A stretch of DNA of 24,683 nt from a virus: positions 1 through 24,683 of the IMG/VR virus record IMGVR_UViG_3300035698_002096; one strand, given 5' to 3'. Shown here one piece after another: positions 74 through 23,881 of the stretch; the first letter of the stretch is position 1, and the number at the start of each line of letters is the position of its first letter. Under the pieces are notes generated by a model. The model was not told the origin of the DNA. It ran no database searches and was given only the letters and a program-made list of their open reading frames with translations. The position numbers were made by a program, and so were the translations under genes.

Positions 74-170
74 GATGTAAGTATAGATTAAATCTATTAA
101 GGTTTCAAAATAGTGATATTACTTAGGCATACCCGTATTGCCGCCGTAATTAATTATATATACTTTGTCT

Positions 171-8240: not shown

Positions 8241-8465
8241 TTATTTCTTACTCCGTTTTTCTTTTGGCTTGTCTGTAATAATTTCTACGCATCCGTCAAC
8301 TTTGGCGTCTTTAAGACGGTCGCGCCAGTAACGGGAAAGAGGAACGCCATCTTTATCCGTGTCGATATCTAATTTATGACCCGCGGGGTGATTTTTTAAC
8401 GGTGCATTAAGTAAGATTTTTTTCTTATAGCCCGTAAAAGCTTTATTTTCATACTCGTTTATCAT
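8241..8465 (-). CDS. DUF2635 / Mu gp38-like small protein
   Basis: 74-residue protein directly before the sheath gene, the position of Mu gp38. The pattern DGVPLSRYWRDRLKDAKVDGCVEI matches the DUF2635 signature (a short peptide ending in a tyrosine-aromatic, arginine-rich, acidic motif); the C-terminus is lysine-rich. The function is unknown in the family, with a role near the tail neck assumed from synteny. It is the first gene of the tail operon after the plus-strand insertion. Its predicted promoter would start transcription almost at the ATG, and there is no nearby Shine-Dalgarno, so a leaderless mRNA is possible. Confidence 0.65.
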   Translation of the reverse strand: MINEYENKAFTGYKKKILLNAPLKNHPAGHKLDIDTDKDGVPLSRYWRDRLKDAKVDGCVEIITDKPKEKRSKK

Positions 8466-8471
8466 GCGTTA

Positions 8472-8500
8472 ATAGTAACCCCTGAACATCAATGTTTCAA
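8472..8500 (-). promoter_or_regulatory. Leftward promoter of the tail operon
   Basis: The minus strand has -35 TTGAAA (8500-8495), a 17-base spacer and -10 TACTAT (8477-8472). The -35 is embedded in CTAATTTG, an octamer repeated at two other leftward promoters in this window. The start site would be near 8465, the ATG of the DUF2635 gene. Confidence 0.5.
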
Positions 8501-8517
8501 ATTAGCAAAATAAACGC

Positions 8518-8546
8518 TTGCAATGAATTTAAAATTAAAATAAGAT
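8518..8546 (+). promoter_or_regulatory. Rightward promoter of the plus-strand insertion
   Basis: -35 TTGCAA, 17-base spacer, -10 TAAGAT. The AT-rich spacer (TTTAAAATTAAAA) and the 62-base distance from the -35 to the start codon match the promoter at 18015-18043. It lies back to back with the leftward tail promoter. Confidence 0.6.
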
Positions 8547-8579
8547 AGCTGTAGTTAAACAGAACATAAGGAACGAACA

Positions 8580-8792
8580 ATGCATAAAGTAGTAATTGAA
8601 GTTAGAAACTATAAAACAAAAGAATTGATTGAAACGAAAACCGAGGAGTTCTTTTCTATCTATAATGCCGAACGCCGTTTATTCGATGTTGAGTGCGAGA
8701 TTGTAGAACAAGAGGAATTGCGCCGCCGATACCAAGGCCATTATGATGACAATTGTCAATCGGTTGAGATTGTTAAAATGGGGGCTTTGTAG
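8580..8792 (+). CDS. Hypothetical protein, first gene of the plus-strand cassette
   Basis: 70-residue protein of unknown function. An AAGGAA Shine-Dalgarno precedes the ATG at good spacing. The sequence has an N-terminal beta pattern (HKVVIEVRNYKTKELIETKTEEFF) and a charged helix (ERRLFDVECEIVEQEELRRRYQ). I do not recognise the family. It is transcribed from its own promoter against the direction of the late genes and its stop is one base from the next start, so it heads a small operon. The position is typical of a 'moron', an accessory cassette, but no role can be read from the sequence. Confidence 0.7.
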   Translation: MHKVVIEVRNYKTKELIETKTEEFFSIYNAERRLFDVECEIVEQEELRRRYQGHYDDNCQSVEIVKMGAL

Positions 8793-8793
8793 G

Positions 8794-9063
8794 ATGATAC
8801 ATACAAAAGGGCCATGGCGTTATTGCTCAGTAATAGATCAGGTTGAGGCATTTGAAGAAAGTGGCAATAGGTCTTTGCAGGTAAAGATAAGCTGCATGGA
8901 AGTAGAAAAAGAAGCAAACGCCCGACTAATAGCCGCCGCCCCTAAAATGCTTAAGGTTTTGGATGCATTGCGAACCGAATTAATTTCGGGCTACGGAAAA
9001 GAATATTTTGACCTTGAATGGCCCGAAATTAATGAAGTAATCAATAAAGCAAGGGGCGAATAA
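8794..9063 (+). CDS. Conserved phage hypothetical protein (ANARLIAAAP motif)
   Basis: 89-residue protein from the ATG at 8794, one base after the previous stop; an in-frame ATG at 8743 lies inside the previous gene and is less likely. It carries an N-terminal KGPWR and a central EANARLIAAAPKMLKVLDAL, a combination seen in many small phage early proteins of unknown function. The second half is a charged helix. The function is not known to me. Confidence 0.7.
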   Translation: MIHTKGPWRYCSVIDQVEAFEESGNRSLQVKISCMEVEKEANARLIAAAPKMLKVLDALRTELISGYGKEYFDLEWPEINEVINKARGE

Positions 9064-9065
9064 TA

Positions 9066-9284
9066 ATGATACATAAACAAAGAGTAGGGCGGGCTTTACG
9101 CCCAATCCCTAATTACTACAAAATAAAAGCCCTAACATCCGCAAAGGATTATATCGAGCGTGGTATGGCACTATTAGAGCATGAGGGATTAGATGAAACT
9201 AACCATAGTCAAAGACGGATTGCGCTAGGGATTGAGCTTTTAAAGCAAGATATTATTGATTTGCAAACAAAAGGAATAGAATAA
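9066..9284 (+). CDS. Hypothetical protein, cassette gene 3
   Basis: 72-residue protein, mostly helical and rich in charged residues, with a basic N-terminus (HKQRVGRALRPIPNYYKIK). The start follows the previous stop by two bases, with AAGGGG upstream. Its last codons (AAAGGAATAGAATAA, encoding KGIE) contain the Shine-Dalgarno for the next gene, whose ATG follows immediately. No family recognised. Confidence 0.65.
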   Translation: MIHKQRVGRALRPIPNYYKIKALTSAKDYIERGMALLEHEGLDETNHSQRRIALGIELLKQDIIDLQTKGIE

Positions 9285-9587
9285 ATGTTTACACTAAGAA
9301 AGATTAGTATTGAGGATGGCAAACAATCAGCGCTAGAAACGGGATACACATCTACGCTGCCATATGCTATGATATTCAAGTGGGACGACCCAGATTGTAG
9401 GTATCCTATCACAAACGTGGACGAAGTGGAAGAGGGGTTTCAGATACTCCTAACTGGCGACTACCCTAGCGAATACCATCGCACGTCTAAGATCAAAGAG
9501 ATTGTTTCTAGGGAAGTCAATAAGGTTGTATTTAAAACGCAAACATCAGTCTACGAAATGACTTTTACAAACGAAGGAATAGAATAA
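9285..9587 (+). CDS. Hypothetical protein, cassette gene 4
   Basis: 100-residue protein with a beta-rich, acidic sequence (MIFKWDDPDCRYPITNVDEVEEGFQILL, KIKEIVSREVNKVVFKTQTSVYEMTF). No signal peptide or membrane segment. It begins directly after the previous stop and ends with the same EGIE-stop junction as its upstream neighbour, overlapping the next start by one base (TAATG). Not recognised; nothing in the sequence indicates an enzymatic motif. Confidence 0.65.
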   Translation: MFTLRKISIEDGKQSALETGYTSTLPYAMIFKWDDPDCRYPITNVDEVEEGFQILLTGDYPSEYHRTSKIKEIVSREVNKVVFKTQTSVYEMTFTNEGIE

Positions 9588-9835
9588 TGAGAATGAAATT
9601 TGAAAATACAACAAACGGTTATGTTGAGGAAAGTAAATGCCCTTGGTTTTGGTTACTATGCTTTGGCTGGATGTATCTAGCATATAAGGGCGCTGGAGGT
9701 ATGGCCTTTATATGGATTATCGCTTATATCTTTACATTTAGCATATCTGGTTTCATATTCCCATTCTTTGCAAAGGGGATCATTGAGAAATCGTACCAAA
9801 AGCGCGGATGGAAAGATGTGACCCATGGCAGTTAA
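9587..9835 (+). CDS. Small membrane protein with two transmembrane segments
   Basis: 82-residue inner-membrane protein. Two hydrophobic stretches are visible, about residues 19-35 (PWFWLLCFGWMYLAYKG) and 39-63 (MAFIWIIAYIFTFSISGFIFPFF), followed by a basic tail (KSYQKRGWKDV). The pattern PWFW-LFG-YLAYKG ... YPFFAK..IEK.Y..RGW resembles a small uncharacterised membrane family found in bacteria and phages. In a phage cassette with its own promoter, such a protein could alter the host envelope, for example by superinfection exclusion, but this is only a context-based guess. Confidence 0.7.
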   Translation: MRMKFENTTNGYVEESKCPWFWLLCFGWMYLAYKGAGGMAFIWIIAYIFTFSISGFIFPFFAKGIIEKSYQKRGWKDVTHGS

Positions 9836-9962
9836 TGACAACGTAAAGACAAAAATAAACAAAGGACGCCTTGAGGTGTTTATGAATAGCTTTATCCTTG
9901 TCTTTGACGAGATACATGAGGCTAATGATTTTTTAATGGATTACTATGAAAGGGATTTATAA
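9825..9962 (+). CDS. Short hypothetical protein (45 aa)
   Basis: 45-residue frame starting at the ATG inside the last codons of the membrane protein gene (11-base overlap) and ending in TAATG with the next gene. It reads as one charged amphipathic helix pair (NKGRLEVFMNSFILVFDEIHE, then FLMDYYERDL). The overlaps on both sides and continuing codon character support translation. Function unknown. Confidence 0.5.
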   Translation: MAVNDNVKTKINKGRLEVFMNSFILVFDEIHEANDFLMDYYERDL

Positions 9963-10060
9963 TGTACGACGATGAAAAGTACAACGCTTTTAAAGATGAG
10001 TTTGGTGTTTGGATTATTGAGATTAAAGAGGCACAACATCCAAATCAATCGGATCAATAG
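9962..10060 (+). CDS. Very short hypothetical protein (32 aa), last cassette gene
   Basis: 32-residue acidic peptide (MYDDEKYNAFKDEFGVWIIE...). An AGGGA Shine-Dalgarno lies in the preceding gene and the ATG overlaps its stop in TAATG. Its 3' end overlaps the convergent neck gene by 38 bases, and no terminator is visible between the two. It might be longer in relatives and truncated here by the insertion junction. Weak evidence beyond coupling. Confidence 0.4.
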   Translation: MYDDEKYNAFKDEFGVWIIEIKEAQHPNQSDQ

Positions 10061-11114
10061 TCATATCCTCGGTATCATTGCCGCCAATCGCTATAGTGTA
10101 ATCAATATCACGAAATGCGCGTGTAGCGGTTGGCAATACAGTATCATCATCGGTCAAATCCATGACTACTTGAAACTCATAGCGATAAACAAGAAAAGCT
10201 TTGTTGTACGCCGCTACTCCATGACCGTTTAAGATTGTGCGAAAGTCCGCGGTATTAGATAGCCCTGTGTCGAACTGTGTTCCGTACAAGGTGCGCATCA
10301 TTGGCAATAGCAAATCATGGCGGCATACATCTAGACTAACCTCGCCCGCTATTTGATCAGTGACAGGCGCTACAATATAACAAACAAACCCGTCGATAAT
10401 ACGCGTTCGCATTTCCTCGCCATTAGTAATCGTGCTAGTTGCATCTGAAAACGTACTTCTATCTTTAGATACCTCAGCATCTAAAGGCTCAACGAAAAGC
10501 CAAAAGTCACTTAAGTCTTGCTTTGTATATTCATCCAAGGCGCGATCAATATCAATAATACTGGCAACTCGTGGATTTAAGTAAACAGCCCCATTAATCG
10601 GCGTGTAAACCCCGTCAAGAAAATCCCCCGCTATAGTGAATGTATTCGCGCCAGTAACGGTAACGCTATAAACGCCATTAATACCGTCGATACGATCTTT
10701 CTCAAGTAAGAATTCATTGCCATTTAATGTCGGCGCAGTGTTAACGCTCATAACTTTAAAAGAACGGCGATTATCACTCGACTTTAGATCGAATACATCG
10801 TTCCATCCCGTATCAGTAAAGCCGCCCATCTCTATCTGGTTATGCTCATCCCATCCTAGGGTTAAGTCATGATCAGCGCTTGTCGTAAAAGTATAATTGA
10901 GGCCGTCTTTGGTCACAGCGCTTATGGGCGTACGAGTTTCAACGCCCGCAATCGTAACCGCGCCACCTGTGTCAAGTCCGTGCGCGGTTAAGGTGGTTAT
11001 TGTAGCCACGCCTGAACTAGCTGCAATACTTGATATTCCTATTGCATCACCGAACAAGTCAGTATAATTAGGAAGCACTGCTCTAATCTGTTTTACTACG
11101 TCGCTAATCCGCAT
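10023..11114 (-). CDS. Neck/tail terminator-like protein with inserted beta domains
   Basis: 363-residue protein after the HK97 gp10-like gene, where Mu has gp37 and other phages have a tail terminator. The N-terminus (MRISDVVKQIRAVLPNYTDLFGDAI) and C-terminus (YEFQVVMDLTDDDTVLPTATRAFRDIDYTIAIGG) look like a DUF1834/tail-terminator-type protein, but it is about twice the usual length. Residues about 27-180 form an insert with two FCCH-like beta motifs, TAHGLDTGGAVTIAG and INGVYSVTVTGANTFTIAG, which are common surface modules in phage structural proteins. The gene starts inside the end of the upstream gene. Assigning it as terminator is inference from order and ends; the insert is directly visible. 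Confidence 0.5.
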   Translation of the reverse strand: MRISDVVKQIRAVLPNYTDLFGDAIGISSIAASSGVATITTLTAHGLDTGGAVTIAGVETRTPISAVTKDGLNYTFTTSADHDLTLGWDEHNQIEMGGFTDTGWNDVFDLKSSDNRRSFKVMSVNTAPTLNGNEFLLEKDRIDGINGVYSVTVTGANTFTIAGDFLDGVYTPINGAVYLNPRVASIIDIDRALDEYTKQDLSDFWLFVEPLDAEVSKDRSTFSDATSTITNGEEMRTRIIDGFVCYIVAPVTDQIAGEVSLDVCRHDLLLPMMRTLYGTQFDTGLSNTADFRTILNGHGVAAYNKAFLVYRYEFQVVMDLTDDDTVLPTATRAFRDIDYTIAIGGNDTEDMTIDPIDLDVVPL

Positions 11115-11535
11115 TGTAAGCCCTCACCATATAGTTAATAAATGTTTGCGCGTTATTGTCAGCAACCCTTTTAACGTTGGGGCGCGGCATCATTTTAGAA
11201 GTTCCGTCTTCAAGATATTCGCCGTAATGGGCCGACTTGCCGTAGCCGAACTCAACTTGCTTGTAACCCCTAACGTTAAACGTTACGCTTCGCGCTAGGT
11301 TACCCGTTAGGTTTGCGGGCGCTTCCCCAGCGGCAGACGCGCGATGAACCCTAGACCCTACGCGATAAACCTTACCTGATTTTCGGTCAAGTTTAATATG
11401 ATTGCGTATATCAAGCTGGTTGCGACGTCCAATATTAAAAGCACCGTCGCGAATAGCCTTCTTATGCCCGCTAGTAATGTTTTCAAGACCGAAATAAACA
11501 CGCTTATTTAACGGATCACCTTTAACACGTATCAT
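11104..11535 (-). CDS. HK97 gp10-like neck/tail-completion protein
   Basis: 143-residue member of the HK97 gp10 family. The core motif is plain: basic N-terminal region, ASAAGEAPANLTGNLARSVTF, then VEFGYGKSAHYGEYLEDGTSKMMPRP. Proteins of this family sit in the neck between head-closure ring and tail. It overlaps the upstream adaptor gene by four bases (ATGA), consistent with translational coupling in the neck operon. Confidence 0.8.
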   Translation of the reverse strand: MIRVKGDPLNKRVYFGLENITSGHKKAIRDGAFNIGRRNQLDIRNHIKLDRKSGKVYRVGSRVHRASAAGEAPANLTGNLARSVTFNVRGYKQVEFGYGKSAHYGEYLEDGTSKMMPRPNVKRVADNNAQTFINYMVRAYNAD

Positions 11536-11918
11536 TGTGCGCTTTCCTTAGTATCGTCCCCGTCAATCATTGCGAATATTTCCGTATATTCTTCACGGCC
11601 CTCATAGTCATCAATACGAACAATACGATATAAAACATCTTTCCATCTTACGCGGGTTTCGTTAGTTACATCATCGCGCCAACGCACGGTAAATTTATGG
11701 CTAGGTTTTTCATCAATTGAAACACCATCAAACACGCGTGCATTAAATTCCGTCTCAACCTTGGCGAAAACCTCGGCTAATTGCGTGTATGCCTCGCTAA
11801 ACCCAACGTTAGAAAAAGAAGGGGCTTTAATGCCCCGAACTTCAAGAGATATACAATCCCTCATGTCGCCTATTGAAACCTTCCTAAGTTTACGGCGCTG
11901 TATTTGTCTAACTGGCAT
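11532..11918 (-). CDS. Head-tail adaptor / head closure protein
   Basis: 128-residue protein of the phage head-tail joining family (SPP1 gp16/HK97 gp9 type), a small beta-barrel that closes the portal channel and docks the tail. Visible features are the N-terminal GDMRDCISLEVRGIK strand, a central W-R-D core (KFTVRWRDDVTNETRVRWKD) and the closing LYRIVRIDDYEGREEYTEIFA strands, which are the family hallmarks. Gene order connector-adaptor-gp10 is standard. Confidence 0.75.
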   Translation of the reverse strand: MPVRQIQRRKLRKVSIGDMRDCISLEVRGIKAPSFSNVGFSEAYTQLAEVFAKVETEFNARVFDGVSIDEKPSHKFTVRWRDDVTNETRVRWKDVLYRIVRIDDYEGREEYTEIFAMIDGDDTKESAQ

Positions 11919-12479
11919 TTATCCATATCCAATAACTATTTTAAACGGAGCGTAAAGGTTTTTAACCTGCATAGGGGGCGATGTAGGATCGTCGCCTCTA
12001 TTCTCGTACAAGAATGAAACATGTTCAAGGATGGCGTCCTTAATAGCGCTAGGCGTTGATGTATAACCCGCGCTAAACGTTACCTTAAACGTATAAGGCA
12101 CAGTTGTATCAAGGTTAGGGGCCGTCGTGAATAAGAGCCTATTAAAGTTTGACCGCTTCTTTCTAAAAAATGAAGTATTGGCAACGTAAGAGCCATCTAC
12201 GGAAACTTCTAAGCTCGTTACTGTATCGACCGGACTTCTTTGCAGCTCAAGAAAGGGTTTAGCCTCGCTATATGAGCCGCAAAGTCCGTCAAAAAAACCA
12301 ACCCAGTCTTTTGATGTAAAATCTCTGCCTGTGTATGCTTCGCCCCATTCAGTCGCGGATGCAACCATGGAAGTGATAACCGCGTCATCTTTGGCAAAGT
12401 CAATCTTAAGGAATGCCTTTGCCTCGGACAATGAAACCGCTACATCAGGAGTGTTTTGTAATTCGTAATAGCTACCCAT
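11919..12479 (-). CDS. Head-tail connector protein (HK97 gp6-like)
   Basis: 186-residue adaptor that forms the ring under the portal. The N-terminus shows the family pattern VSLSEAKAFLKIDFAKDDAVITSMVASATEWGEAYTGRDF (four-helix core), followed by beta-rich sequence and a C-terminal helix AIKDAILEHVSFLYENRGD. The length is a little above the basic gp6 because of the beta-rich middle part. Its start overlaps the stop of the preceding small gene by one base. Confidence 0.75.
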   Translation of the reverse strand: MGSYYELQNTPDVAVSLSEAKAFLKIDFAKDDAVITSMVASATEWGEAYTGRDFTSKDWVGFFDGLCGSYSEAKPFLELQRSPVDTVTSLEVSVDGSYVANTSFFRKKRSNFNRLLFTTAPNLDTTVPYTFKVTFSAGYTSTPSAIKDAILEHVSFLYENRGDDPTSPPMQVKNLYAPFKIVIGYG

Positions 12480-12718
12480 TACTTAACCTTTTTATTAGGG
12501 CCTCTTTTTTTAGGCTTAGTCTCAACTTCAACGGATTTAGCTTCATGCTCGTCTTTAGTTTCAACTTCAACGGCGTCAAGAACGGCGACACCATCTTCAA
12601 TTAAAATAAGCGCGTGCGCATCGGAAACTTCAAGAACCTGATTGGCCTCAACCTCAATAATTCCGTCAATGCCGTGATTAAGGGCTACTTTACCAGTTTT
12701 TTTAAATTTAATATTCAT
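12479..12718 (-). CDS. Small hypothetical structural-module protein
   Basis: 79-residue protein between decoration protein and connector. A short N-terminal beta domain (MNIKFKKTGKVALNHGIDGIIEVEANQVLEVSDAHALILIEDGVAVLD) resembles the small 'L-loop' proteins often found in this slot, which read like V/I-rich, acidic barrel fragments; the rest is an acidic then strongly basic tail (PKKRGPNKKVK). It follows a terminator, so expression should be lower than for the capsid gene. Role unknown. Confidence 0.65.
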   Translation of the reverse strand: MNIKFKKTGKVALNHGIDGIIEVEANQVLEVSDAHALILIEDGVAVLDAVEVETKDEHEAKSVEVETKPKKRGPNKKVK

Positions 12719-12745
12719 TATCTATTCCTTTTTGTTATTCTTATA

Positions 12746-12779
12746 TAAAAAGAGGCGGGCCACAAAGGAGCAGCCCGCC
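12746..12779 (-). terminator. Intrinsic terminator after the capsid/decoration genes
   Basis: The minus strand folds into a 7-bp GC stem (GGCGGGC/GCCCGCC at 12779-12773 and 12760-12754, 12-base loop) followed by TCTTTTT. It lies between the decoration gene and the next leftward gene, a good place to limit the highly expressed capsid transcript and allow partial read-through into the neck genes. Confidence 0.8.
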
Positions 12780-12788
12780 AACTCGTAT

Positions 12789-13199
12789 TTATTGATTAGC
12801 TACTGGAGCATGGTTAGGCGAGAATTTAACAGCTACGCCGTCAAAAACACCACCTGAACTAGTCCCAGCCGAAACGACGCTCAAACGAACATAACGCTTC
12901 TTACCGATATAACCAACGCGTTTAGGCGTGTTATCTTCGGTTGCAGCGAATGCGATTGAACCCAACAAATCAGCAGCACCAACGGTAGCCGCGTCTGAAA
13001 GGTCATCAGCGTCACCGTGCGCAAGAACAACGGTATAAGTACCGTCAGTGATAACCGCGGACTTAAGAACAAATTCTAAGCCGTGATATCCGGCAATATC
13101 AATGATCTCGCCGTCTGTTGTTGCGTTTGTACTGATAGTAGCACTGTCAAACGCGTTAGCGACTTCACAGTTATCGTGTAGGTCAAAAAGTTTACCCAT
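12789..13199 (-). CDS. Probable head decoration/minor capsid protein
   Basis: 136-residue protein directly after the major capsid gene. It is beta-rich, Ala/Gly/Asp-rich and has no membrane segment: GEIIDIAGYHGLEFVLKSAVITDGTYTVVLAHGDADDL, then KKRYVRLSVVSAGTSSGGVFDGVAVKFSP. The pattern is common in phage proteins encoded next to the capsid gene and thought to sit on or near the capsid shell. The decoration role is inferred from position and composition. Confidence 0.6.
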   Translation of the reverse strand: MGKLFDLHDNCEVANAFDSATISTNATTDGEIIDIAGYHGLEFVLKSAVITDGTYTVVLAHGDADDLSDAATVGAADLLGSIAFAATEDNTPKRVGYIGKKRYVRLSVVSAGTSSGGVFDGVAVKFSPNHAPVANQ

Positions 13200-13214
13200 T
13201 TGTTTCTTCTCCTA

Positions 13215-14408
13215 TTAAGCTTTGATTTTAAGCGCTTTGAAAGCTTCTGAAAGAACAACCTGACCAGTATTATACTTATGGAAGCAAAGTTCAATGATAC
13301 GCTCTTTTTTGCGTGTTACTTCATCGCGAACTACAGCAAGGCCAGTACGATCAATGATCGTGTAACCGCGCATAAAGTCGCCATAAATTACAGACAAAGC
13401 ATTAGTTGCGATTGAAGGAACATCTTGCATAACAAGATAGTCTTCGCCTGCGATTTGGTTAGGCTTACCACCACCAAGACCTACATTCCATAGGTACTGA
13501 CCGTTTGAACCTTTAAGCGTACGCAAGAAAGCTAAAGTCTGGCGATTAAATCCGAATAGAGGATTATAGCCTTCTTTAAGCTCACCAGTAAGCGTAATGA
13601 TATCGTCGCCTGTGATTGTGCCTGAACTTTCTGAAGTATAAGCGCCTGCAATAACTTCTGCATTAGCAAGAACACCTTCAGGTTGTCTTACGCCGTCACC
13701 AAGTAGGAACTTATTGCCCTCTTTTTGTGCGAACGCTTCAGCAACATCACGGTTGATTTCAGCTTCAATGTCAAAGTCAGAAGACAAAAGCATATCGAAA
13801 GTGAAAGGAACATTAACAGTCAAAGCGTTAGCCGTGATAGTTTCTGAACCGTACTCGCTTGTGCTGTCTTGTGCTGCGGCAGTTTCGCCTTCATAAGTAG
13901 CTGTTAAGATGCCTGTACGTTTAGGCATTTCAAGAGTTTTCTTACCAATTGTGCGAACGCGTGCAACTTGGCGAATTGGAGAAATTTCAGTCATCAATCG
14001 GATGATTTCATTATCCATTTCAGAAGATGTTAAGTAACCGCCAGCAGTATCGCTGTCAGTACGCAAAAGCGCCTTAGCTTCCATGTCAACATGTTCCATA
14101 CCTTTAGACGCAAAGAGATTAAGAGCTTTATACTCTTCAGTTTCTTTATAGTCTACGCCATCAAAACCACCTGATTTACGGGCAATTTCAACTTCTAGGT
14201 CTTTTACTTGGTCAGCCATATCTTCACGGGCTTTACGCTCCGCTGCGATTTCGGCAACCACTTCTTGGTTTTTAGTTTCTTGCTTGGCAAGTGTGTCTTC
14301 AGCTTTCGCAGAGAAAGCCTTAAACTCAGCGGATTCAATGCCGAACTTTTCCGCTTTTTCGCGGATTTGCTCAACTAACTGAACCACTTCTTTATTTTCA
14401 TCAGACAT
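13215..14408 (-). CDS. Major capsid protein, HK97 fold
   Basis: 397-residue HK97 gp5-family capsid protein. Residues about 1-85 are charged coiled coil (QLVEQIREKAEKFGIE...), the scaffolding delta domain that the prohead protease removes. The mature part begins around the ALLRTDSDTAGGYLTSSEM segment, the typical family start, followed by the E-loop/P-domain motif ISPIRQVARVRTIGKKTLEMPK and the A-domain stretch NKFLLGDGVRQPEGVL. The C-terminus has the expected VIYGDFMRGYTIIDRTGLAVVRD motif. An AAAGGG Shine-Dalgarno precedes the ATG. No independent promoter is obvious directly upstream. Confidence 0.92.
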   Translation of the reverse strand: MSDENKEVVQLVEQIREKAEKFGIESAEFKAFSAKAEDTLAKQETKNQEVVAEIAAERKAREDMADQVKDLEVEIARKSGGFDGVDYKETEEYKALNLFASKGMEHVDMEAKALLRTDSDTAGGYLTSSEMDNEIIRLMTEISPIRQVARVRTIGKKTLEMPKRTGILTATYEGETAAAQDSTSEYGSETITANALTVNVPFTFDMLLSSDFDIEAEINRDVAEAFAQKEGNKFLLGDGVRQPEGVLANAEVIAGAYTSESSGTITGDDIITLTGELKEGYNPLFGFNRQTLAFLRTLKGSNGQYLWNVGLGGGKPNQIAGEDYLVMQDVPSIATNALSVIYGDFMRGYTIIDRTGLAVVRDEVTRKKERIIELCFHKYNTGQVVLSEAFKALKIKA

Positions 14409-14420
14409 ATTATGCCCTTT

Positions 14421-15461
14421 CTATAATGTTTTTAAAGTTTCGTTAAGTTTGGTTAAAGTGTCTTTTAATTCAGCATCCCGCTGCGACTTCTCATCAGCGT
14501 CCCGCTGATCGTCATCATTTAAAAGTGATACAAAAGCCTTAGCCTGTTTTTGACTAAAGCATACGCCGCCTTTCAGCAGTGTTTCTAATTCGCGCTCGCT
14601 TAACAGTTTAACGTTGTCTGCGCGGAATGTCCCGTTTTCTTTGTACGGGCTTTCTAAATTCATTTTAACGTAGTAATCAGCAATTGTTTTTTTAATAGCT
14701 TCATGCTCGTACTCATTAACTCCATCAATACCCTTTTGAACTAAAAAGGCAGATCGGAAAATAGCGTCTGGGATAATAGTAAGCTTGCCATCTAGGATAT
14801 CAGCAATAGGAAGTAAGCATTCTGTTACTCCATCTTTTTCTTTTGTAAATAAGTAAGCGCTATCATTAACGTCTTTTCCTTCGTGTCTTTTTTGTGCGCC
14901 GTCATGATCCCAATGCGTGCCCATCGGAGCGACAGGCAAATCCTGAATGCCAGATGATTTAAAGCCAGTAATTACGGCATCGGCGTTCATTGGGATAGTA
15001 ACTAGCGAAGTTTCAAACAATTCTGCCTTTTCAATGCTTCGAATATTACCGTTAAAGCTTTCTTTTTCAATAACGTAACCAATAGACATATCAGAAATAG
15101 ATCCAGCTTCCATTTGCGGAATAACTCGGCCTTTAACAAAATCATCGCCCTTCGGTAATATAGCTTTAACGTACAAGCCCTTTTCGTCTTCGCGCATTTC
15201 AACAAAAGAGCCAATAGGTTGATCCCAATTATGCTGCCATAAAACAGGCATCATCTTAGAAAACTCAGTACCCTTAATCGGCACGACCTTAGACGCCATC
15301 CTTCTAATCGTATCAGTAAAAGCGCCGCGTAAAACAATATCGTTCCCGCGGTCTTTATTACCGAACGTTGAAGCATAACCTTCAAACATAAAATATTTAT
15401 CAGAAATATCTTGTGTCTTAACTTCGGTTAACTCACAATTTAAAAAATGCTTTGTTTTCAT
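14421..15461 (-). CDS. Prohead protease (HK97 gp4-like) with C-terminal extension
   Basis: 346-residue maturation protease that cleaves the capsid delta domain. The N-terminal 170 residues are the catalytic domain: FEGYASTFGNKDRGNDIVLRGAF, catalytic histidine 77 in WQHNWDQPIG, and catalytic serine 126 in GSISDMSIGY. Residues about 180-290 form a second domain (THWDHDGAQKRHEGK, YLFTKE, LLPIADILDGKLTIIPDAIF) known as an extra module in some phage proteases or minor head proteins. The C-terminus is a charged coiled coil. The predicted promoter at 15482-15510 and an AGAGGA Shine-Dalgarno precede it, so the protease and capsid genes can be expressed separately from the portal operon. Confidence 0.88.
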   Translation of the reverse strand: MKTKHFLNCELTEVKTQDISDKYFMFEGYASTFGNKDRGNDIVLRGAFTDTIRRMASKVVPIKGTEFSKMMPVLWQHNWDQPIGSFVEMREDEKGLYVKAILPKGDDFVKGRVIPQMEAGSISDMSIGYVIEKESFNGNIRSIEKAELFETSLVTIPMNADAVITGFKSSGIQDLPVAPMGTHWDHDGAQKRHEGKDVNDSAYLFTKEKDGVTECLLPIADILDGKLTIIPDAIFRSAFLVQKGIDGVNEYEHEAIKKTIADYYVKMNLESPYKENGTFRADNVKLLSERELETLLKGGVCFSQKQAKAFVSLLNDDDQRDADEKSQRDAELKDTLTKLNETLKTL

Positions 15462-15481
15462 TTAATCCTCTATTCGCTTTA

Positions 15482-15510
15482 ATTGTATATTATGCGGTGT
15501 TGCTTCTCAA
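15482..15510 (-). promoter_or_regulatory. Leftward promoter of the protease/capsid genes
   Basis: The minus strand shows -35 TTGAGA (15510-15505), 17 bases, -10 TACAAT (15487-15482). The -35 is again inside CTAATTTG. A TTGCAA on the plus strand (15527-15532) completes the same island design as at 8498 and 18004, but no plus-strand gene follows here. Confidence 0.6.
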
Positions 15511-15557
15511 ATTAGCCTTAAAGCCATTGCAAAGCCCAATTAAGCCAAAATTATATA

Positions 15558-15821
15558 TTAATACATTCCAACTAGGTCTGTCGCTGTCGTTAATGTGCTA
15601 TTTACACGAAGTGCGCGAAACGGAATTATAGAACCCGTTGGCACGTCTTTATAAACAACAACAACGCTGCCCTTTGATACGATAGCTATATCGCCACCAA
15701 CACCAACATAAATACCACGGGTTACTTTTGTAAAATCAGTCCCGTCGCTTGGCGTGATTGAAAAATGGTTATCCGCTGGATCGCTCAAACCTTCTCTGTA
15801 TGTGTTAAAATCATCACTCAT
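15558..15821 (-). CDS. Spike-base-like protein (RCAP_Rcc01079/GTA GhsA type)
   Basis: 87-residue beta-rich protein. The pattern LSDPADNHFSITPSDGTDFTKVTRGIYVGVGGDIAI, then VPTGSIIPFRALRVNSTLTTATDLVGMY, matches the small family named after Rhodobacter capsulatus Rcc01079, the base of the GTA head spike that binds host capsule. In many phages such genes lie in the head module. The assignment is from recalled family pattern; the role as a head-surface spike base in this phage is inference. It follows the head morphogenesis gene. Confidence 0.6.
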   Translation of the reverse strand: MSDDFNTYREGLSDPADNHFSITPSDGTDFTKVTRGIYVGVGGDIAIVSKGSVVVVYKDVPTGSIIPFRALRVNSTLTTATDLVGMY

Positions 15822-15835
15822 AGTCTTCTCCTTAG

Positions 15836-16675
15836 TTAAAATTTAATATTAATATTACTTGCGCATCGACAGTTAACCCATTCACGGATCGGAGCGCCTA
15901 AACTTGTATCACCCGGAAACCTCATTTTAAAACCACCGACTATAAAGGCGTCGTCTATTCCTACAACTTGCCTATCCGCTGTTATGTGCGTGCTTCTGAC
16001 ATTAGCGTCACCAACCGTAACCCATTGCTTCGTACCCTCTTTAATAGGCTCTTCACGGCTTATTTGTGCGAAAGGGTCTTGCTGAACGGTATAAGGAACG
16101 CGCCCTGAATTGGCCTGCGCCATTATTAACTTAGTGCTTTCCGCTGCGGTCTGAGTTTCTGTTATAGCAATGCCTGATACGCGGCTCAAAAACTTGCGGC
16201 GGTTAAACGTGGCGGCCAAAACTGCAACTGATGCCGCGGTGACTGTAATCCCGTCTTCTAGTAATGATTGCTGTGCTTTTCGCACTGATTGATTGGCGTC
16301 TCTTTGCGTAGTATTAAGGATAAAGGCGGGCTGAGTAACAACTTTATCGGATTGCCATTCAGCTAATCCTAAATCAGCTAACTCCTCGTTGCTCACCTGT
16401 TTAACTTTTACTTTTTTAAATACCCTTTGTACACGGTCATAATGCTTGCGCAATATAGCCGCAAGATCGCCAGTATAAACGCTAAAATCAATAATGCTTC
16501 CATTAGACGCATATTTTCTTTTGAAGTCCCTATTCATACGGTTCATAAGCGGGCGTATAGATGCGTCAAGCTTTTGTTCAAGGCGCAGTTTATTATTAAG
16601 CTCGCGCGTAGCTATGTTTTTTTGCTCTAAAGTTAAAGCGTCCGGCGACAATACTTTGCACTGACATTTATTCAT
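15836..16675 (-). CDS. Head morphogenesis protein, F-like (SPP1 gp7/Mu gpF type)
   Basis: 279-residue minor head protein that associates with the portal inside the procapsid. I chose the ATG at 16675 (MNKCQCKVLSPDALT), preceded by GAGG and overlapping the portal stop, over the ATG at 16699. The C-terminal half has the family signature: KQWVTVGDANVRSTHITADRQVVGIDDAFIVGG, MRFPGDTSLGAP and the closing WVNCRCA cysteine motif. The N-terminal half is helical and basic. Translational coupling to the portal gene is expected from the overlap. Confidence 0.83.
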   Translation of the reverse strand: MNKCQCKVLSPDALTLEQKNIATRELNNKLRLEQKLDASIRPLMNRMNRDFKRKYASNGSIIDFSVYTGDLAAILRKHYDRVQRVFKKVKVKQVSNEELADLGLAEWQSDKVVTQPAFILNTTQRDANQSVRKAQQSLLEDGITVTAASVAVLAATFNRRKFLSRVSGIAITETQTAAESTKLIMAQANSGRVPYTVQQDPFAQISREEPIKEGTKQWVTVGDANVRSTHITADRQVVGIDDAFIVGGFKMRFPGDTSLGAPIREWVNCRCASNINIKF

Positions 16676-17945
16676 CTTCATCCTCAAATGGGGCTTCATC
16701 TGCTAAATCCTCGCCAGCGGGGATGAGTGTTGCGGCTTGATAGAATACATCTCCTCCGATAAGCGGATCACGGTTTGGCAATGCTTCACGTAATTCATTG
16801 ACAGTCTCAACATTAACCTCGCGGCGTGTTTTAAGCTCTGCAAGTAGACGGCTTTTAAGCGCGGTGATTGTTTCAGGGTTATAAGTTACTGCCTCGAATG
16901 TATCGCCGTATCTATGACGCAAGCTTTTTGTTAAACCGCTAAATATAATTTCAGCATACGGCAATACGGAACGGTCATACAAATCCTCAATAGCACGATC
17001 AAAATTATTATAGGTTTGACTGTCTGGGGATATGATCGGCAGTGGTATTCCATAGCGCATAAAGATACTATCACGAGAAACAGTCTCAAGGGATGCAAAA
17101 TCCATATCTTTATTGTTTTGCCCTAGCTCAACAATATCCATATCGCTAGCCGCATATACTGCAATCTTGCCCGCGTTATCAGATCCGCTAAAATCATCAA
17201 TAACCTTGTCTTTAAATTCTTGAAATTGCTCCGGCTGGGGTGCTTGCTCACCCTTCATAATAACAGCCATGGAAAGACGACCGCCATTTGATAAAAGTTT
17301 AAGGTTATGATTTTTTCCTGATATCTGTTGACGAGCCTCAAGAGCCGCGGCCTGCAATGGACTATCGGCTAGGGTGTTTGAAATTCTTGATGAATAACCG
17401 TGTATTTGATAAAGCTCCCTAAGATTTCCGTCGTAAAAACGAGTAACGCCCTTTAACTTGTTGCGCGAATAAACCCCATTAGACATGCCCTGAGTGGTTT
17501 GATACGTGTTAGGGTACTTGTCCATCCCGTCTTCTGTTATGCTTACCGTCTGATTATTAATAGCGAATAAGGTCGCGGGCGGACGGTTAACTGAACCTTC
17601 AGAGTAAATAAAAGCATCATGGTTCAAAAGGTAATTACGAATAAGCTGACCCATGAACTCGCGATAATCTTCGAACTCGTTGGGATTTTTAAGGAGGTCA
17701 AGAACTTCGTGCGTATCGTCTAACGTGCCATCTTTTAGCAGTACTACGGGTTTTATTTGTTCAACCTCTTTTGCAATTGTGTCAATAGCAGTTGCGACCG
17801 CGCTTGAGTTTCGATAAAACTCCGCAGACTTTGCAGCCGTGACCATTCCCCCGAACAATACTTGATCCATAAATGAACCTTCGAGTACTGAAGAGTAGGA
17901 ATATGACTTTTTTTCGATTTTAGGCTTAAAGAATTTTTTTAACAT
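16668..17945 (-). CDS. Portal protein (HK97 gp3 family)
   Basis: 425-residue portal, the dodecameric ring through which DNA is packaged and released. Family motifs are visible: VATAIDTIAKEVEQIKPVVL, VLDLLKNPNEFEDYREFMGQLIRNYLLNHDAFIY, SPLQAAALEARQQ, the stretch FQEFKDKVIDDFSGSDNAGKIAVY, and FASLETVSRDSIFMRYGIPLPII. It ends with a very acidic tail (EDLADEAPFEDEDE). It is the first gene leftward of the divergent promoter island at 17978-18043, separated from the terminase genes by the HTH insertion and a terminator. Only a weak Shine-Dalgarno (GGTTGG) is seen. Confidence 0.9.
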   Translation of the reverse strand: MLKKFFKPKIEKKSYSYSSVLEGSFMDQVLFGGMVTAAKSAEFYRNSSAVATAIDTIAKEVEQIKPVVLLKDGTLDDTHEVLDLLKNPNEFEDYREFMGQLIRNYLLNHDAFIYSEGSVNRPPATLFAINNQTVSITEDGMDKYPNTYQTTQGMSNGVYSRNKLKGVTRFYDGNLRELYQIHGYSSRISNTLADSPLQAAALEARQQISGKNHNLKLLSNGGRLSMAVIMKGEQAPQPEQFQEFKDKVIDDFSGSDNAGKIAVYAASDMDIVELGQNNKDMDFASLETVSRDSIFMRYGIPLPIISPDSQTYNNFDRAIEDLYDRSVLPYAEIIFSGLTKSLRHRYGDTFEAVTYNPETITALKSRLLAELKTRREVNVETVNELREALPNRDPLIGGDVFYQAATLIPAGEDLADEAPFEDEDE

Positions 17946-17977
17946 TCGCCAACCATTGTTATATACATGCGCCTTTC

Positions 17978-18006
17978 ATTATGGGGTATCTATGACAGGT
18001 TGGCAA
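17978..18006 (-). promoter_or_regulatory. Leftward promoter of the portal operon
   Basis: The minus strand has -35 TTGCCA (18006-18001), 17 bases, -10 CATAAT (17983-17978), with the -35 inside CTAATTTG. The start site would be about 30 bases before the portal ATG. It is needed because a terminator blocks read-through from the terminase genes. Confidence 0.65.
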
Positions 18007-18014
18007 ATTAGGGG

Positions 18015-18043
18015 TTGCATCGGCTTTAAATTTAAAATATAAT
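18015..18043 (+). promoter_or_regulatory. Rightward promoter of the HTH gene
   Basis: -35 TTGCAT, 17-base spacer, perfect -10 TATAAT. It is back to back with the portal promoter (only 8 bases between the -35 boxes), so a protein bound here could control both directions. Confidence 0.75.
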
Positions 18044-18076: not shown

Positions 18077-18262
18077 ATGAATTTCACAATTAATAAAGAC
18101 CGTAATGATAAGATTGTTGAAATGGTTAACAACGGTTATACCTATGCAGAGACGGCAGGCGCTTTGGGGATTACTCGCAGTACTGTTTCTGGCGTAATTG
18201 GTAAGGCATCGGTTAAAAATAAGAAACTAAGCTTTGAAGACCGAATGGCTAAGTACATATAA
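18077..18262 (+). CDS. Small helix-turn-helix protein, GcrA-like
   Basis: 61-residue DNA-binding protein. Residues about 10-46 (NDKIVEMVNNGYTYAETAGALGITRSTVSGVIGKASV) form a helix-turn-helix closely resembling the N-terminal domain of GcrA, an alphaproteobacterial cell-cycle transcription factor (pattern ...LW..G.S...IA..LG.TR.AVIGK...). It lacks any further domain. An AGGGGA Shine-Dalgarno precedes the ATG. The gene stands alone on the plus strand between portal and terminase, has its own strong promoter and terminator, and shares a promoter island with the portal operon, so it may regulate the late genes. The target is not shown by the sequence. Confidence 0.75.
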   Translation: MNFTINKDRNDKIVEMVNNGYTYAETAGALGITRSTVSGVIGKASVKNKKLSFEDRMAKYI

Positions 18263-18299
18263 AAAAGACCCCGCACTATAATAATGCGGGGTTTAGTTT
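18261..18299. terminator. Bidirectional intrinsic terminator
   Basis: An 8-bp perfect stem ACCCCGCA/TGCGGGGT (18268-18275 and 18285-18292) with a 9-base loop. To the left it is followed, on the minus strand, by CTTTTTT; to the right by TTTAGTTT. It separates the converging HTH gene and large terminase gene. Confidence 0.88.
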
Positions 18300-20574: not shown

Positions 20575-20856
20575 TTATAGCTTTCTATATATAATTGTTC
20601 TTCTTCTTGACTCTGGCGATACAAAAAAAGATTTTATGATCATCCCGCTATTAATTAGGTTGTCGATAGCCTCTTGCCTTTCATACCTGTTTATCCACTG
20701 AGTTTTTCTTGTTATTTCTGATTTAGTAAAGGTGTTACCCATGTTGTTTATCGCGTATAGAACTTTCTTTTCTGTAGTTACCTCCCCTTTATATTTTTTA
20801 CCCATACAAACGACCGCTATCGTTCCGTCGTCCATTTTTTTCGTTTTGATTTCCAT
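20575..20856 (-). CDS. Stand-alone winged-helix-like paralogue of the replication protein's C-terminus
   Basis: 93-residue protein whose last 50 residues align with the last 50 of the 710-residue primase-helicase in this window: TKSEITRKTQ against SKSDITRKTQ, RQEAIDNLINSGMI against RQDIIETLIESGDI, both ending in a basic/aromatic beta-hairpin (RRRTIIYRKL against GRNVTMYYC). The pattern fits a winged-helix DNA-binding domain found at the end of DUF3987-type helicases. The N-terminal 40 residues form a short beta-rich segment (GTIAVVCMGKKYKGEV). It may bind the same DNA or partner as the helicase, acting as initiator helper or competitor. The homology is visible; the role is inference. Confidence 0.7.
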   Translation of the reverse strand: MEIKTKKMDDGTIAVVCMGKKYKGEVTTEKKVLYAINNMGNTFTKSEITRKTQWINRYERQEAIDNLINSGMIIKSFFVSPESRRRTIIYRKL

Positions 20857-21036: not shown

Positions 21037-21065
21037 ATCATGACCTATCTATATCGTAATGTAAA
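21037..21065 (-). promoter_or_regulatory. Possible leftward early promoter
   Basis: The minus strand shows -35 TTTACA (21065-21060), 17 bases, -10 CATGAT (21042-21037). The -35 falls inside the first of two 20-base direct repeats, which could therefore be operator sites. Confidence 0.4.
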
Positions 21066-21092
21066 GTAATTGATCGTAATGCAAAGTAATTG
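21053..21092. repeat. Two adjacent 20-bp direct repeats (iteron- or operator-like)
   Basis: Positions 21053-21072 and 21073-21092 are identical except for one base (T at 21062, C at 21082). The period of 20-21 bases places both copies on the same face of the helix. They precede an AT-rich region next to the replication genes, as iterons do, and also overlap a possible leftward promoter. Confidence 0.8.
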
Positions 21093-21543: not shown

Positions 21544-21633
21544 TAAGCTGCGCCCTAAGAAGGAACGAACAAAATAAGGCGCGCTTTAATGTGATCGCGG
21601 CGCTAATAATAGCGGAATGCGTCTCACATCTAA
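21505..21633 (-). ncRNA. Possible leftward small RNA
   Basis: A promoter at 21668-21640 (TTGACA, 17, AATTAT) would start a transcript near 21633 that ends at the terminator near 21505, about 130 nt. It contains a long imperfect hairpin at 21589-21629: outer stem ATGTGA/TCACAT, short CGC/GCG stem and inner CGCTA/TAGCG with a 4-base loop. A 39-codon frame (21649-21530) covers the same strand, but its ATG lies at the -10 box, so a noncoding role is preferred. Position beside the replication gene recalls phage immunity/copy-control RNAs; this is a hypothesis. Confidence 0.4.
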
Positions 21634-21748: not shown

Positions 21749-23881
21749 ATGCATAATTTCACTAGCTATTATAAACTTGGCTTAAGTATATTCCCCCTCC
21801 GCGGGAAGCATCCATTGATTTCATGGAAGCGTTTTCAAGATAACCGCGCGGATGTTGAGGAGGTAACCAAGTGGGACGTTACCCCTCATAATATTGGTAT
21901 TGCTACGGGCCATGTGTCTGAAATATTAGTTGTTGATGTTGATGGGGTTTATCCTCCTGATTGGCCGGAAATGCCGAAAACGTGGACGGCTAAGACAAAA
22001 AAAGGCTTTCACTATTATTTTTATATGTCGCCTGATCAGGATTTCCGCAATTCCACGAGGATTGCCGAGAACGTCGATATTCGTGCAAATGGGGGGTATG
22101 TGGTGGCCCCGCCCTCTAAACACCCTGACGGGGGATTGTATTCGTGGGAAATAGCGCCAGAGGATGCGACACTTGCAGATATACCTGATTGGCTCATTGA
22201 GGTTTTGAATAAGCATGACAAGCGTTTGTTTGAAGCACCTAATCATACAAAGGTTGATAAGCCTGTTGTTAGGTCTGTTAATTCTAGCGATAACGATCAA
22301 GCTTACATTGATGCCGCGGTTAAGGCCGAATGCGATATTTTAAGAACTATCGGCGAGGGCGGTCGTAATGATCAGTTGAATAAAAGCACGTTTGCGCTTG
22401 CCGGATTGTTACCCGCTGGCGAGGTTTCTGCGATTTTAACGCCTATTGCATTAGAGATAGGGCTTAACGCTGTTGAAACACGTAAAACGATTGATAGCGG
22501 ATGCCAAGGGGCAAGGCCGCGGGAAATACCCCAGCGCATCGGATTTGTGTCTAATCCAGAGGCCCCAGAAGAAATGCCTCTTATTGTTAAGAATATATTA
22601 GAACGTAATGGCAAGGTTATAAAGCAAAGTGAAATATCGTCAGATTTAATTAGCGGAGCGCCTTCTTTTATGGGTGACTTTATACGATGGTCGCTTGCTA
22701 CGTCTTTCTTTCCTCAACCGACATTATCGCTAGCTGCTGCTATTGCTTTGGCGGGGCATCTTATGGCGCATAAAGTGGCGACGGAAACGGATTTAAGAAC
22801 TAATTTTTATACGATGGGCGTGGCAGAGAGTGGCGCTGGAAAAGAACATGCCAGACGGTGCGTTGCCAAGTTGCTAGATGCTGCGGGTCATTCTGATGGC
22901 TTGTCCGGTGATCCGGCATCATCCCCCGCCGTGATCAACTTGGTTAGTAGGGCCGGAGGCGCTGCGCTAATTCAAATAGATGAAATGGGTCATTACATAA
23001 AAAGTATTGGCGGGGATAATTCAGCCAGTCATAATAAGATGGTAGCCGCTAACTTTATGAAACTGTATTCTAGTGCGGGCGGAATGTATATCGGTCAAGA
23101 GTATGCTAACAATGAAACCAATGGAGGGCGGTCTGATATTGACCAGCCGTGTTTAAATATATACGGAACGACTATACCTGATAATCTTTATGGGGCGCTT
23201 TCTAAAGAGAGTGCATATGATGGGTTTTTGTCTCGCTGGATGATATTTGAAACATCACGATTTGATATTGAGGGTAATGTTAATGCACAAAGATTAGGAA
23301 CACCCCCAGACGGGTTAGTTGAAAGCGCGAAATTTTGGATTGACCAGCCTAAATATCACGCGGGTGCAGGCGGTCAGGATGGAAATTTAAACACTTACAC
23401 TATGATTAAACCTCGCGTTATTGAATTTACTGATACGGCTAGAAAGCAATATTACGAGTTTAGAACGGATTGCCGTAGAAAAATGGCCAATTCTAGCGAT
23501 AAGATTGATCGGGCATTTTGGAATAGAACGGCAGAACATGCGGCAAAGCTTGCCCTAGTTGGACATGTTGGCGATAAAATTTGTACTAGCGTTTTTGATT
23601 GGGCGGTTGAGCTATCTAATGCTTTGACCATATCGGCTATTGATAATATTAAAGCTAATGTTTATGATAATGCTTATGAGGCAGAGCTTCAAAATATATT
23701 TAAACTGGTTAAAAATGCGCGTGCCGGAATAAGCAAAAGCGATATTACCCGCAAAACGCAAACGATGGAACGCCGAAAACGTCAAGACATTATTGAAACG
23801 CTTATTGAAAGTGGCGACATTAGAGAAGAAAAAAAGCAGTCCGAGGGTTCGGGACGCAATGTAACTATGTATTACTGTTAG
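21749..23881 (+). CDS. Primase-polymerase/helicase replication protein (Prim-Pol + DUF3987-like + winged helix)
   Basis: 710-residue replication protein. Residues 1-155 are a bifunctional primase/polymerase domain: YYKLGLSIFPLRGKHPLISW, metal-binding DVD at 63-65 (VVDVDG), GFHYYF with histidine 88, and VDIRANGGYVVAPPS with aspartate 110. Residues about 195-262 (GRNDQLNKSTFALAGL...TIDSGCQGAR) form the linker domain usual after Prim-Pol. Residues about 305-640 are a DUF3987-type ATPase/helicase with Walker A AESGAGKE (lysine 365) and Walker B ALIQIDE (411-412). Residues 661-710 are a winged-helix-like domain shared with the 93-residue protein at 20575-20856. It should prime and unwind at the phage origin, probably the repeat region just upstream. 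The GGGGGA 12 bases before the ATG is a distant Shine-Dalgarno. Confidence 0.85.
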   Translation: MHNFTSYYKLGLSIFPLRGKHPLISWKRFQDNRADVEEVTKWDVTPHNIGIATGHVSEILVVDVDGVYPPDWPEMPKTWTAKTKKGFHYYFYMSPDQDFRNSTRIAENVDIRANGGYVVAPPSKHPDGGLYSWEIAPEDATLADIPDWLIEVLNKHDKRLFEAPNHTKVDKPVVRSVNSSDNDQAYIDAAVKAECDILRTIGEGGRNDQLNKSTFALAGLLPAGEVSAILTPIALEIGLNAVETRKTIDSGCQGARPREIPQRIGFVSNPEAPEEMPLIVKNILERNGKVIKQSEISSDLISGAPSFMGDFIRWSLATSFFPQPTLSLAAAIALAGHLMAHKVATETDLRTNFYTMGVAESGAGKEHARRCVAKLLDAAGHSDGLSGDPASSPAVINLVSRAGGAALIQIDEMGHYIKSIGGDNSASHNKMVAANFMKLYSSAGGMYIGQEYANNETNGGRSDIDQPCLNIYGTTIPDNLYGALSKESAYDGFLSRWMIFETSRFDIEGNVNAQRLGTPPDGLVESAKFWIDQPKYHAGAGGQDGNLNTYTMIKPRVIEFTDTARKQYYEFRTDCRRKMANSSDKIDRAFWNRTAEHAAKLALVGHVGDKICTSVFDWAVELSNALTISAIDNIKANVYDNAYEAELQNIFKLVKNARAGISKSDITRKTQTMERRKRQDIIETLIESGDIREEKKQSEGSGRNVTMYYC

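Follow-up and report, generated by a model that had tools for sequence, protein, structure and literature searches.

In phage lambda, the divergent promoters PR and PRM have -35 boxes near enough for interference, and a site lies between them. Repeated promoter modules of the PeSL type were reportedly described by Arbiol in 2010 and by Comeau in 2014. PeSLs of T4-like phages are repeated intergenic promoter modules tied to exchangeable small genes (PMC4503421). The morons of lambdoid phages are extra genes with their own promoter and terminator, located between late genes (PMC1524935). Cluster K mycobacteriophages carry SAS and ESAS elements, in which GGGATAGGAGCCC is found at gene starts together with 17-bp inverted repeats, and for which a role in translation initiation has been proposed (PMC3203893). 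In the late promoters controlled by Mu C, which host polymerase uses together with an activator, every late operon has a conserved element located at the -35 or immediately ahead of it (PMC4461284). Here we describe a family of predicted late promoters, and the divergent promoter islands in which some of them reside, in the viral record IMGVR_UViG_3300035698_002096 (hereafter 'the window', which is the complete 24,683-base record). We consider it probable, from the sequence features described below, that these islands are back-to-back promoters of a late class that allow reverse-oriented gene cassettes to sit inside late operons, and that each pair functions as an either/or switch. Our literature search, which left most subscription papers outside its reach, found no description of this arrangement.

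The record is itself probably a fragment of a genome. Its minus strand carries packaging, head and contractile-tail genes, among which those for portal and terminase were identified by family search, whereas the sheath, tube and other tail genes are presumed from their position. The primase region is on the plus strand, and two further groups of plus-strand genes (8580-10060 and 18077-18262) lie within the late array. As the initial annotation of this DNA had reported, the word CAAATTAG is located at 8498, 15508 and 18004, always on the plus strand and always in a gene gap, and the window has no further copy. On the minus strand the word reads CTAATTTG, and its TTG is followed at all three positions by a 17-bp spacer and a good -10 box, again as first described. 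Read in this way, CTAATTTG forms the -35 region of a predicted late promoter that is specific to the phage. A fourth site, which was absent from the earlier list, belongs to the same set in the window:

8472..8505, minus strand: late promoter of the 74-amino-acid (aa) gene/sheath operon; CTAATTTG at 8498-8505, TTGAAA, 17 bp, TACTAT at 8472-8477; start predicted on the ATG of the gene ending at 8465 (leaderless).
15482..15515, minus strand: late promoter of the protease/major capsid operon; CTAATTTG at 15508-15515, TTGAGA, 17 bp, TACAAT; leader of 20 nucleotides (nt) with AGGA.
17978..18011, minus strand: late promoter of the portal operon; CTAATTTG at 18004-18011, TTGCCA, 17 bp, CATAAT; leader of 32 nt.
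80..113, minus strand: fourth late promoter; CTATTTTG at 106-113, 17 bp, TATACT at 80-85; predicted start coinciding with the ATG (71-73) of a gene (MLDAALF..) that leaves the window.

An inverted repeat, GCCAACC/GGTTGGC at 17946-18010, spans the portal promoter and its leader, and is not clearly kept in G001, a relative described below.

One alternative is that the octamer is a chance word in AT-rich gaps. Its bare count in the window is indeed unremarkable, as the three copies compare with 1.7 expected and are equaled in 25 of 100 shuffles. However, CAAATTAG is the sole 8-mer of the window with at least three copies that all reside in gaps, in three different gaps, and its promoter-linked form was not recovered in three gaps in any of 1000 gap shuffles. 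The evidence from other genomes is much stronger. The window has no DNA similarity to known phages in the collection searched, its sheath protein has no match there, and neither a single-protein scan with the portal nor two scans of genome contigs found relatives. The capsid and sheath proteins recovered relatives among uncultured viral contigs: G001 (82-84% identity in these two proteins), G004/G002 (63-73%) and G003 (about 60%). The DNAs of G002 and G004 are 99-100% identical, and these were counted as one phage.

G001 and G004 played no part in finding the octamer. In these two genomes, four of the five copies of CTAATTTG lie in gaps directly upstream of a gene on the matching strand, a class of gap that makes up 2.5% of the sequence (P = 2e-6), and no other 8-mer is better enriched upstream of genes. 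Enrichment in gene gaps had been named beforehand as one of the observations on which the initial annotation would stand or fall, and it is present. All four gap copies are 33-53 bases before a late gene and have a -10 at 17 or 18 bp. Given the gap shuffles, and the enrichment and the orthologous positions in relatives, we rejected coincidence, to which we assign almost no probability.

When one or two differences are allowed (CTAWTTTGA), 15 sites are evident in three phages; a search with the word by itself had already recovered the three exact window sites and four in relatives. Across the 15, TTTG is invariant and TA nearly so, C is present in 11, position 4 is A or T, and the base after the octamer is A in 11. 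The portal, the protease/capsid genes, the 74-aa gene/sheath operon and a gene after the baseplate cluster are each preceded by a site in all three phages, and the remaining sites precede the circulation gene of G001 and the tail-terminator gene and terL of G004. Specifically, sites orthologous to those in the window occur for the 74-aa gene at G001 17110 (TTAATTTG) and G004/G002 24105/1330, for the protease at G001 25812 and G004 15400, for the portal at G001 28394 (GTAATTTGCCA) and G004 9053 (GCAATTTG), and for the fourth promoter at G001 8857 and G004 31845. In pairwise alignments of orthologous gaps, which over their full length are only about 55-60% alike, the octamer and the -10 are preserved. 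Even terL of G004, which has been moved and inverted, is preceded by its own late promoter. We find a conserved element beside the -35 ahead of each late operon, as in activator-dependent late promoters, and CTAWTTTGA appears to mark a late promoter class of this phage and its relatives.

The rearranged terL is located at 15661-16822 of G002 (L019) and at 436-1689 of G004 (L023), where it lies apart from terS, is inverted with respect to the other late genes and has a CTAATTTG promoter of its own. A frame break splits the terL open reading frame of G002.

The position of the -10 boxes relative to the start codons offers further support for these elements as promoters. At seven of the 15 sites the -10 ends 6-7 nt ahead of the start codon, compared with a background of 5.7% in the same genomes (P = 9e-6), and RNA polymerase is therefore expected to start on or beside the A of the ATG. 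Six of these seven sites lack a Shine-Dalgarno match of at least three bases, and the seventh has only GGT. Several leadered sites (protease in the window and in G001; portal in G004) carry AGGA, AAGG or AGGT. The predicted starts thus fit the promoter geometry, and several late mRNAs of these phages are predicted to be leaderless.

Two of the three sites that prompted this work are associated with genes on the opposite strand. The following features make up these islands and the inserts that they serve:

8518..8546, plus strand: cassette promoter; TTGCAA, 17 bp, TAAGAT, then the conserved leader AGTTAAACA; back-to-back with the late promoter at 8472-8505.
8506..8513, plus strand: second word resembling the octamer, CAAAATAA, situated 4 nt ahead of the cassette -35; the same word is in the G001 12293 island.
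8580..10060, plus strand: reverse-oriented cassette of about seven small open reading frames within the late array.
18015..18043, plus strand: promoter of the helix-turn-helix (HTH) gene cassette; TTGCAT, 17 bp, TATAAT, leader GAGCTAAACA; the late octamer is 3 nt away.
18077..18262, plus strand: one-gene reverse cassette encoding a 61-aa HTH protein (HTH_23, E = 1.7e-5).
18268..18292, strand not assigned: terminator hairpin that separates terL from the HTH cassette (z = -3.7).

Seven such islands are present, two in the window, three in G001 and two in G004, each just ahead of a reverse-oriented cassette. The first window island and the three of G001 have a cassette module in common, consisting of TTGAC or TTGCA, then ATTTAAAAWTWAAATAAGRTAG, four bases and AGTTAAACA; the second window island is a weaker version. 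Module scores are 39.7 at 8518..8546 and 31.6 at 18015..18043, and the next best site in the window outside an island scores 10.6. The three G001 islands precede different genes and yet have 79-81% identity across 67 bp, against 57% for the best shuffle. Both G004 islands share another module, which starts with GGGTTTACATTGT, and a literal search for the first module among viral contigs matched G001 only. On the late side, beyond the octamer, the islands share nothing but the -10.

These data recast part of the initial annotation, which had described three equivalent divergent islands with a rightward TTGCA partner. The partner is real only where a reverse cassette follows, twice in the window and three times in G001, and TTGCAA at 8518 and TTGCAT at 18015 do begin good rightward promoters, each with the TAAACA word in its leader. 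In contrast, it is spurious at 15508, a site flanked by two minus-strand genes with no plus-strand gene following, and it is missing from the orthologous gaps of G001 and G004. The distance of 62 bases from -35 to ATG is exact at both window islands but is not a general rule, as it is about 59-63 in three G001 islands. In line with the initial annotation, the conserved sequence that flanks the core -35 does mark late operons and adjoin inserted cassettes, and it is enriched in the gene gaps of related phages.

The spacing between the two promoters in an island is nearly fixed. The octamer is 3 nt from the cassette -35 in six islands and 12 nt in the seventh (8498). If CAAAATAA is taken as a copy of the octamer in the latter, as we suppose, the distance is 3-4 nt in all seven. 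This regularity could also be expected if the octamer were an operator in the -40 region of the cassette promoter, with any effect on late genes due to chance. We regard this explanation as very improbable, because octamers without a cassette promoter at the protease, terL and G004 74-aa gene sites largely refute it, although a dual role is possible.

Two other readings of the islands were rejected. The folding of five gap sequences (four islands and a gap with a late promoter only) does not surpass that of shuffles (z = -1.6 to +1.0), at odds with a PeSL or stem-loop reading. Control of the GcrA/CcrM type via GANTC was dismissed, since the five sites in the window include none in gaps.

Comparison of junctions among the four phages reveals that late promoters accompany inserts between genes that are otherwise adjacent. 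At the circulation gene, the genes adjoin without a promoter in the window, G004 and G003, whereas G001 has a cassette and a full promoter. Similarly, genes overlap or abut without a promoter at the tail-terminator gene in the window, G001 and G003, whereas G004 has a cassette and a promoter. At the 74-aa gene, the G003 junction is a few bases without a promoter, with the tail-terminator and 74-aa genes adjacent and free of any insert, whereas the other three phages have an insert and a promoter; the G004 insert runs in the late-gene direction. The 72-aa open reading frame in the 8580..10060 cassette of the window has a homologue in the correspondingly placed cassette of G001. Finally, after the baseplate cluster the window promoter follows right after the stop codon with no cassette, and in G001 and G004 a cassette lies between the stop codon and the octamer. 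All seven listed reverse cassettes have a late promoter, and late promoters also occur without a cassette.

Such exact insertions raise the alternative that the module of octamer and cassette promoter is kept as an exchange site for cassettes through homologous recombination, and that promoter function is secondary. Near-identical islands precede different genes both in G001 and in G004, and the post-baseplate cassettes are inserted precisely between stop codon and octamer, in line with this explanation. It nevertheless seems improbable to us, because the late octamer is kept at cassette-free sites (protease, terL and the post-baseplate site of the window) and always has a -10 at 17-18 bp even though the gaps have otherwise diverged.

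The hairpin at 18268-18292 is strong on the minus strand (U-run CTTTTTT), and the T-run on the plus strand is weaker. On the minus strand it would stop terL transcripts before they reach the portal gene, and the promoter at 17978-18011 would repair this defect. A second strong terminator-like hairpin, at 12754-12779 on the minus strand, follows the capsid/decoration genes. No late promoter was found before the next gene (start 12718), and the head-completion genes would therefore be served by read-through or by a weaker promoter.

Is a phage regulator required to explain these observations? TTG and a -10 at 17-18 bp are common to all 15 late sites, in part because sites were selected for them, and -10 boxes and 17-bp spacing of this kind are ordinary for sigma70. 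The late sites could then be plain host sigma70 promoters, with the octamer as the -35 context preferred by the host (UP-like, for example), no phage regulator, and timing set by copy number or antitermination. A family search of selected proteins found no activator gene, which is consistent with this possibility. However, CTAWT is conserved like the TTG and is found only ahead of late genes, whereas the cassette promoters have better -35 boxes and no CTAWT on their own strand. We therefore judge the sigma70-only explanation possible but somewhat unlikely, and a phage-encoded regulator that binds the flank is plausible.

The HTH protein encoded at 18077-18262 had been put forward as this shared regulator, a proposal we rejected: it has no homologue (E <= 1e-4) in the relatives that keep the motif, whose records are fragments, and exhibits just a weak 38-aa match to the HTH protein of a G001 cassette (E = 0.002). 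A cassette gene of G001 (L017), at 12367-12822, encodes an HTH-like N-terminus and a match to the C-terminal domain of RNA polymerase alpha (PF03118, E = 2e-6), and its product is possibly a transcription-modifying protein. In G001 (L018), the cassette that precedes the 74-aa gene has a tRNA-Met(cat) gene (1996-2070) at its 3' end, on the cassette strand.

Our preferred explanation remains that of back-to-back promoters acting as a switch. Late operons would start from CTAWTTTGA followed by a TATWAT-like -10 at 17-18 bp, and in an island this promoter would face out of the insert, back-to-back with the repeated sigma70-like cassette promoter. The cassette would be transcribed in one direction, and transcription of the interrupted late operon would restart in the opposite direction, frequently right on the ATG. 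About 8 bp separate the -35 boxes in most islands, a distance at which double occupancy is unlikely given the established footprints of promoters; two polymerases could thus hardly bind together, and competition is expected. The pair would then act as an either/or switch, with the cassette on early and the late promoter on later, and a phage late activator that touches the CTAWT flank would favor the late side. Such contact would also account for conservation of the flank to the same degree as the -35. The sequences themselves establish the promoter family, its retention at orthologous late operons, the repetition of the cassette promoter, a spacing that is almost constant, and the coincidence with inserts. 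Promoter activity, the activator and mutual exclusion are features that we infer, as is the timing, for which gene content is our guide.

Several observations weigh against this interpretation. The family search of selected proteins yielded no activator candidate, in records that are fragments. The octamer search found no such pattern in G003 or in more distant relatives; in distant relatives identified by capsid and portal it detected only scattered copies, most of them intragenic or of unassigned position with respect to genes. Among the 15 sites, several came from allowing mismatches and requiring a -10, some -10 boxes match at only four of six positions, and the G001 and G004 islands are in part paralogous copies, such that the sites do not represent 15 independent events. 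Furthermore, the post-baseplate and protease promoters of the window lack a cassette, and thus promoter and cassette are not an obligatory unit.

More tentatively, and with somewhat less than even confidence, we propose that reverse cassettes enter as units that bring along an outward-facing, often leaderless late promoter. Each insertion would thereby undo the polar effect that it causes, and one late regulator would switch all junctions from cassette to late transcription. More generally, a promoter at the insert junction that restarts the operon would offer a concrete, testable answer to the question of how phages take up genes that oppose a long late operon and still keep the downstream genes in use. 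The promoter family likewise delineates a candidate late regulon, from sequence only, in a group of uncultured phages.

Other repeats and genes in the window merit description. An exact 13-mer, AAGGAACGAACAA, occurs twice on the plus strand, at 8568-8580, where the first cassette gene has its ribosome-binding region, and at 21560-21572 in the large gap before the primase; no such repeat would be expected by chance. This AT-rich gap of about 890 bp also holds two tandem 20-bp copies of ATCGTAATGYAAAGTAATTG (21053-21092, plus strand; 95% identical), possibly an origin or early control region. A 93-aa open reading frame at 20575-20856 (minus strand) is a stand-alone relative of the C-terminal ~66 residues of the primase-like protein at 21749-23881 (plus strand), with 24 of 69 residues identical (E = 7e-9), and the shared unit is probably a winged-helix-type domain. 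The baseplate/spike-like open reading frame at 171-1970 (minus strand) has internal repeats of 183 bp and 86 bp (75-81% identical) and a poly-glycine run, unlike its relatives of about 180 aa in G001 and G004.

The arrangement described here shares features with each of the known systems. Like lambda PR and PRM, the islands have close divergent -35 boxes, although they are repeated at several operons rather than forming one switch, and no repressor or operator is shown. The late sites resemble Mu C-type promoters in having an element by the -35, whereas here no C-like protein is identified, the element is one 8-mer, and the -10 boxes are good. They are also similar to SAS and ESAS as a short, clade-specific repeat just upstream of many genes that is conserved per gene family (PMC3203893), but the element is CTAWTTTG with a -10 rather than GGGATAGGAGCCC, and thus is not a SAS. 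With PeSLs, the islands share repeated promoters and exchangeable genes; they have no stem-loop, and a late promoter is paired divergently. The cassettes also resemble the morons of lambdoid phages, which are likewise extra genes with their own promoter inserted amid late genes (PMC1524935). At the circulation, tail-terminator and 74-aa junctions, open reading frames are inserted between genes that are adjacent in relatives. All seven islands provide the insert with its own predicted promoter; a clear terminator is present only at 18268-18292, and a similar hairpin follows the G001 17110 cassette. A family search for an integrase (PF00589) was negative, and a lysogenic role is therefore unsupported for these cassettes. 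Unlike morons, the cassettes oppose the late genes, at least one is multi-gene, and they have a common repeated promoter that stands back-to-back with an outward late promoter.

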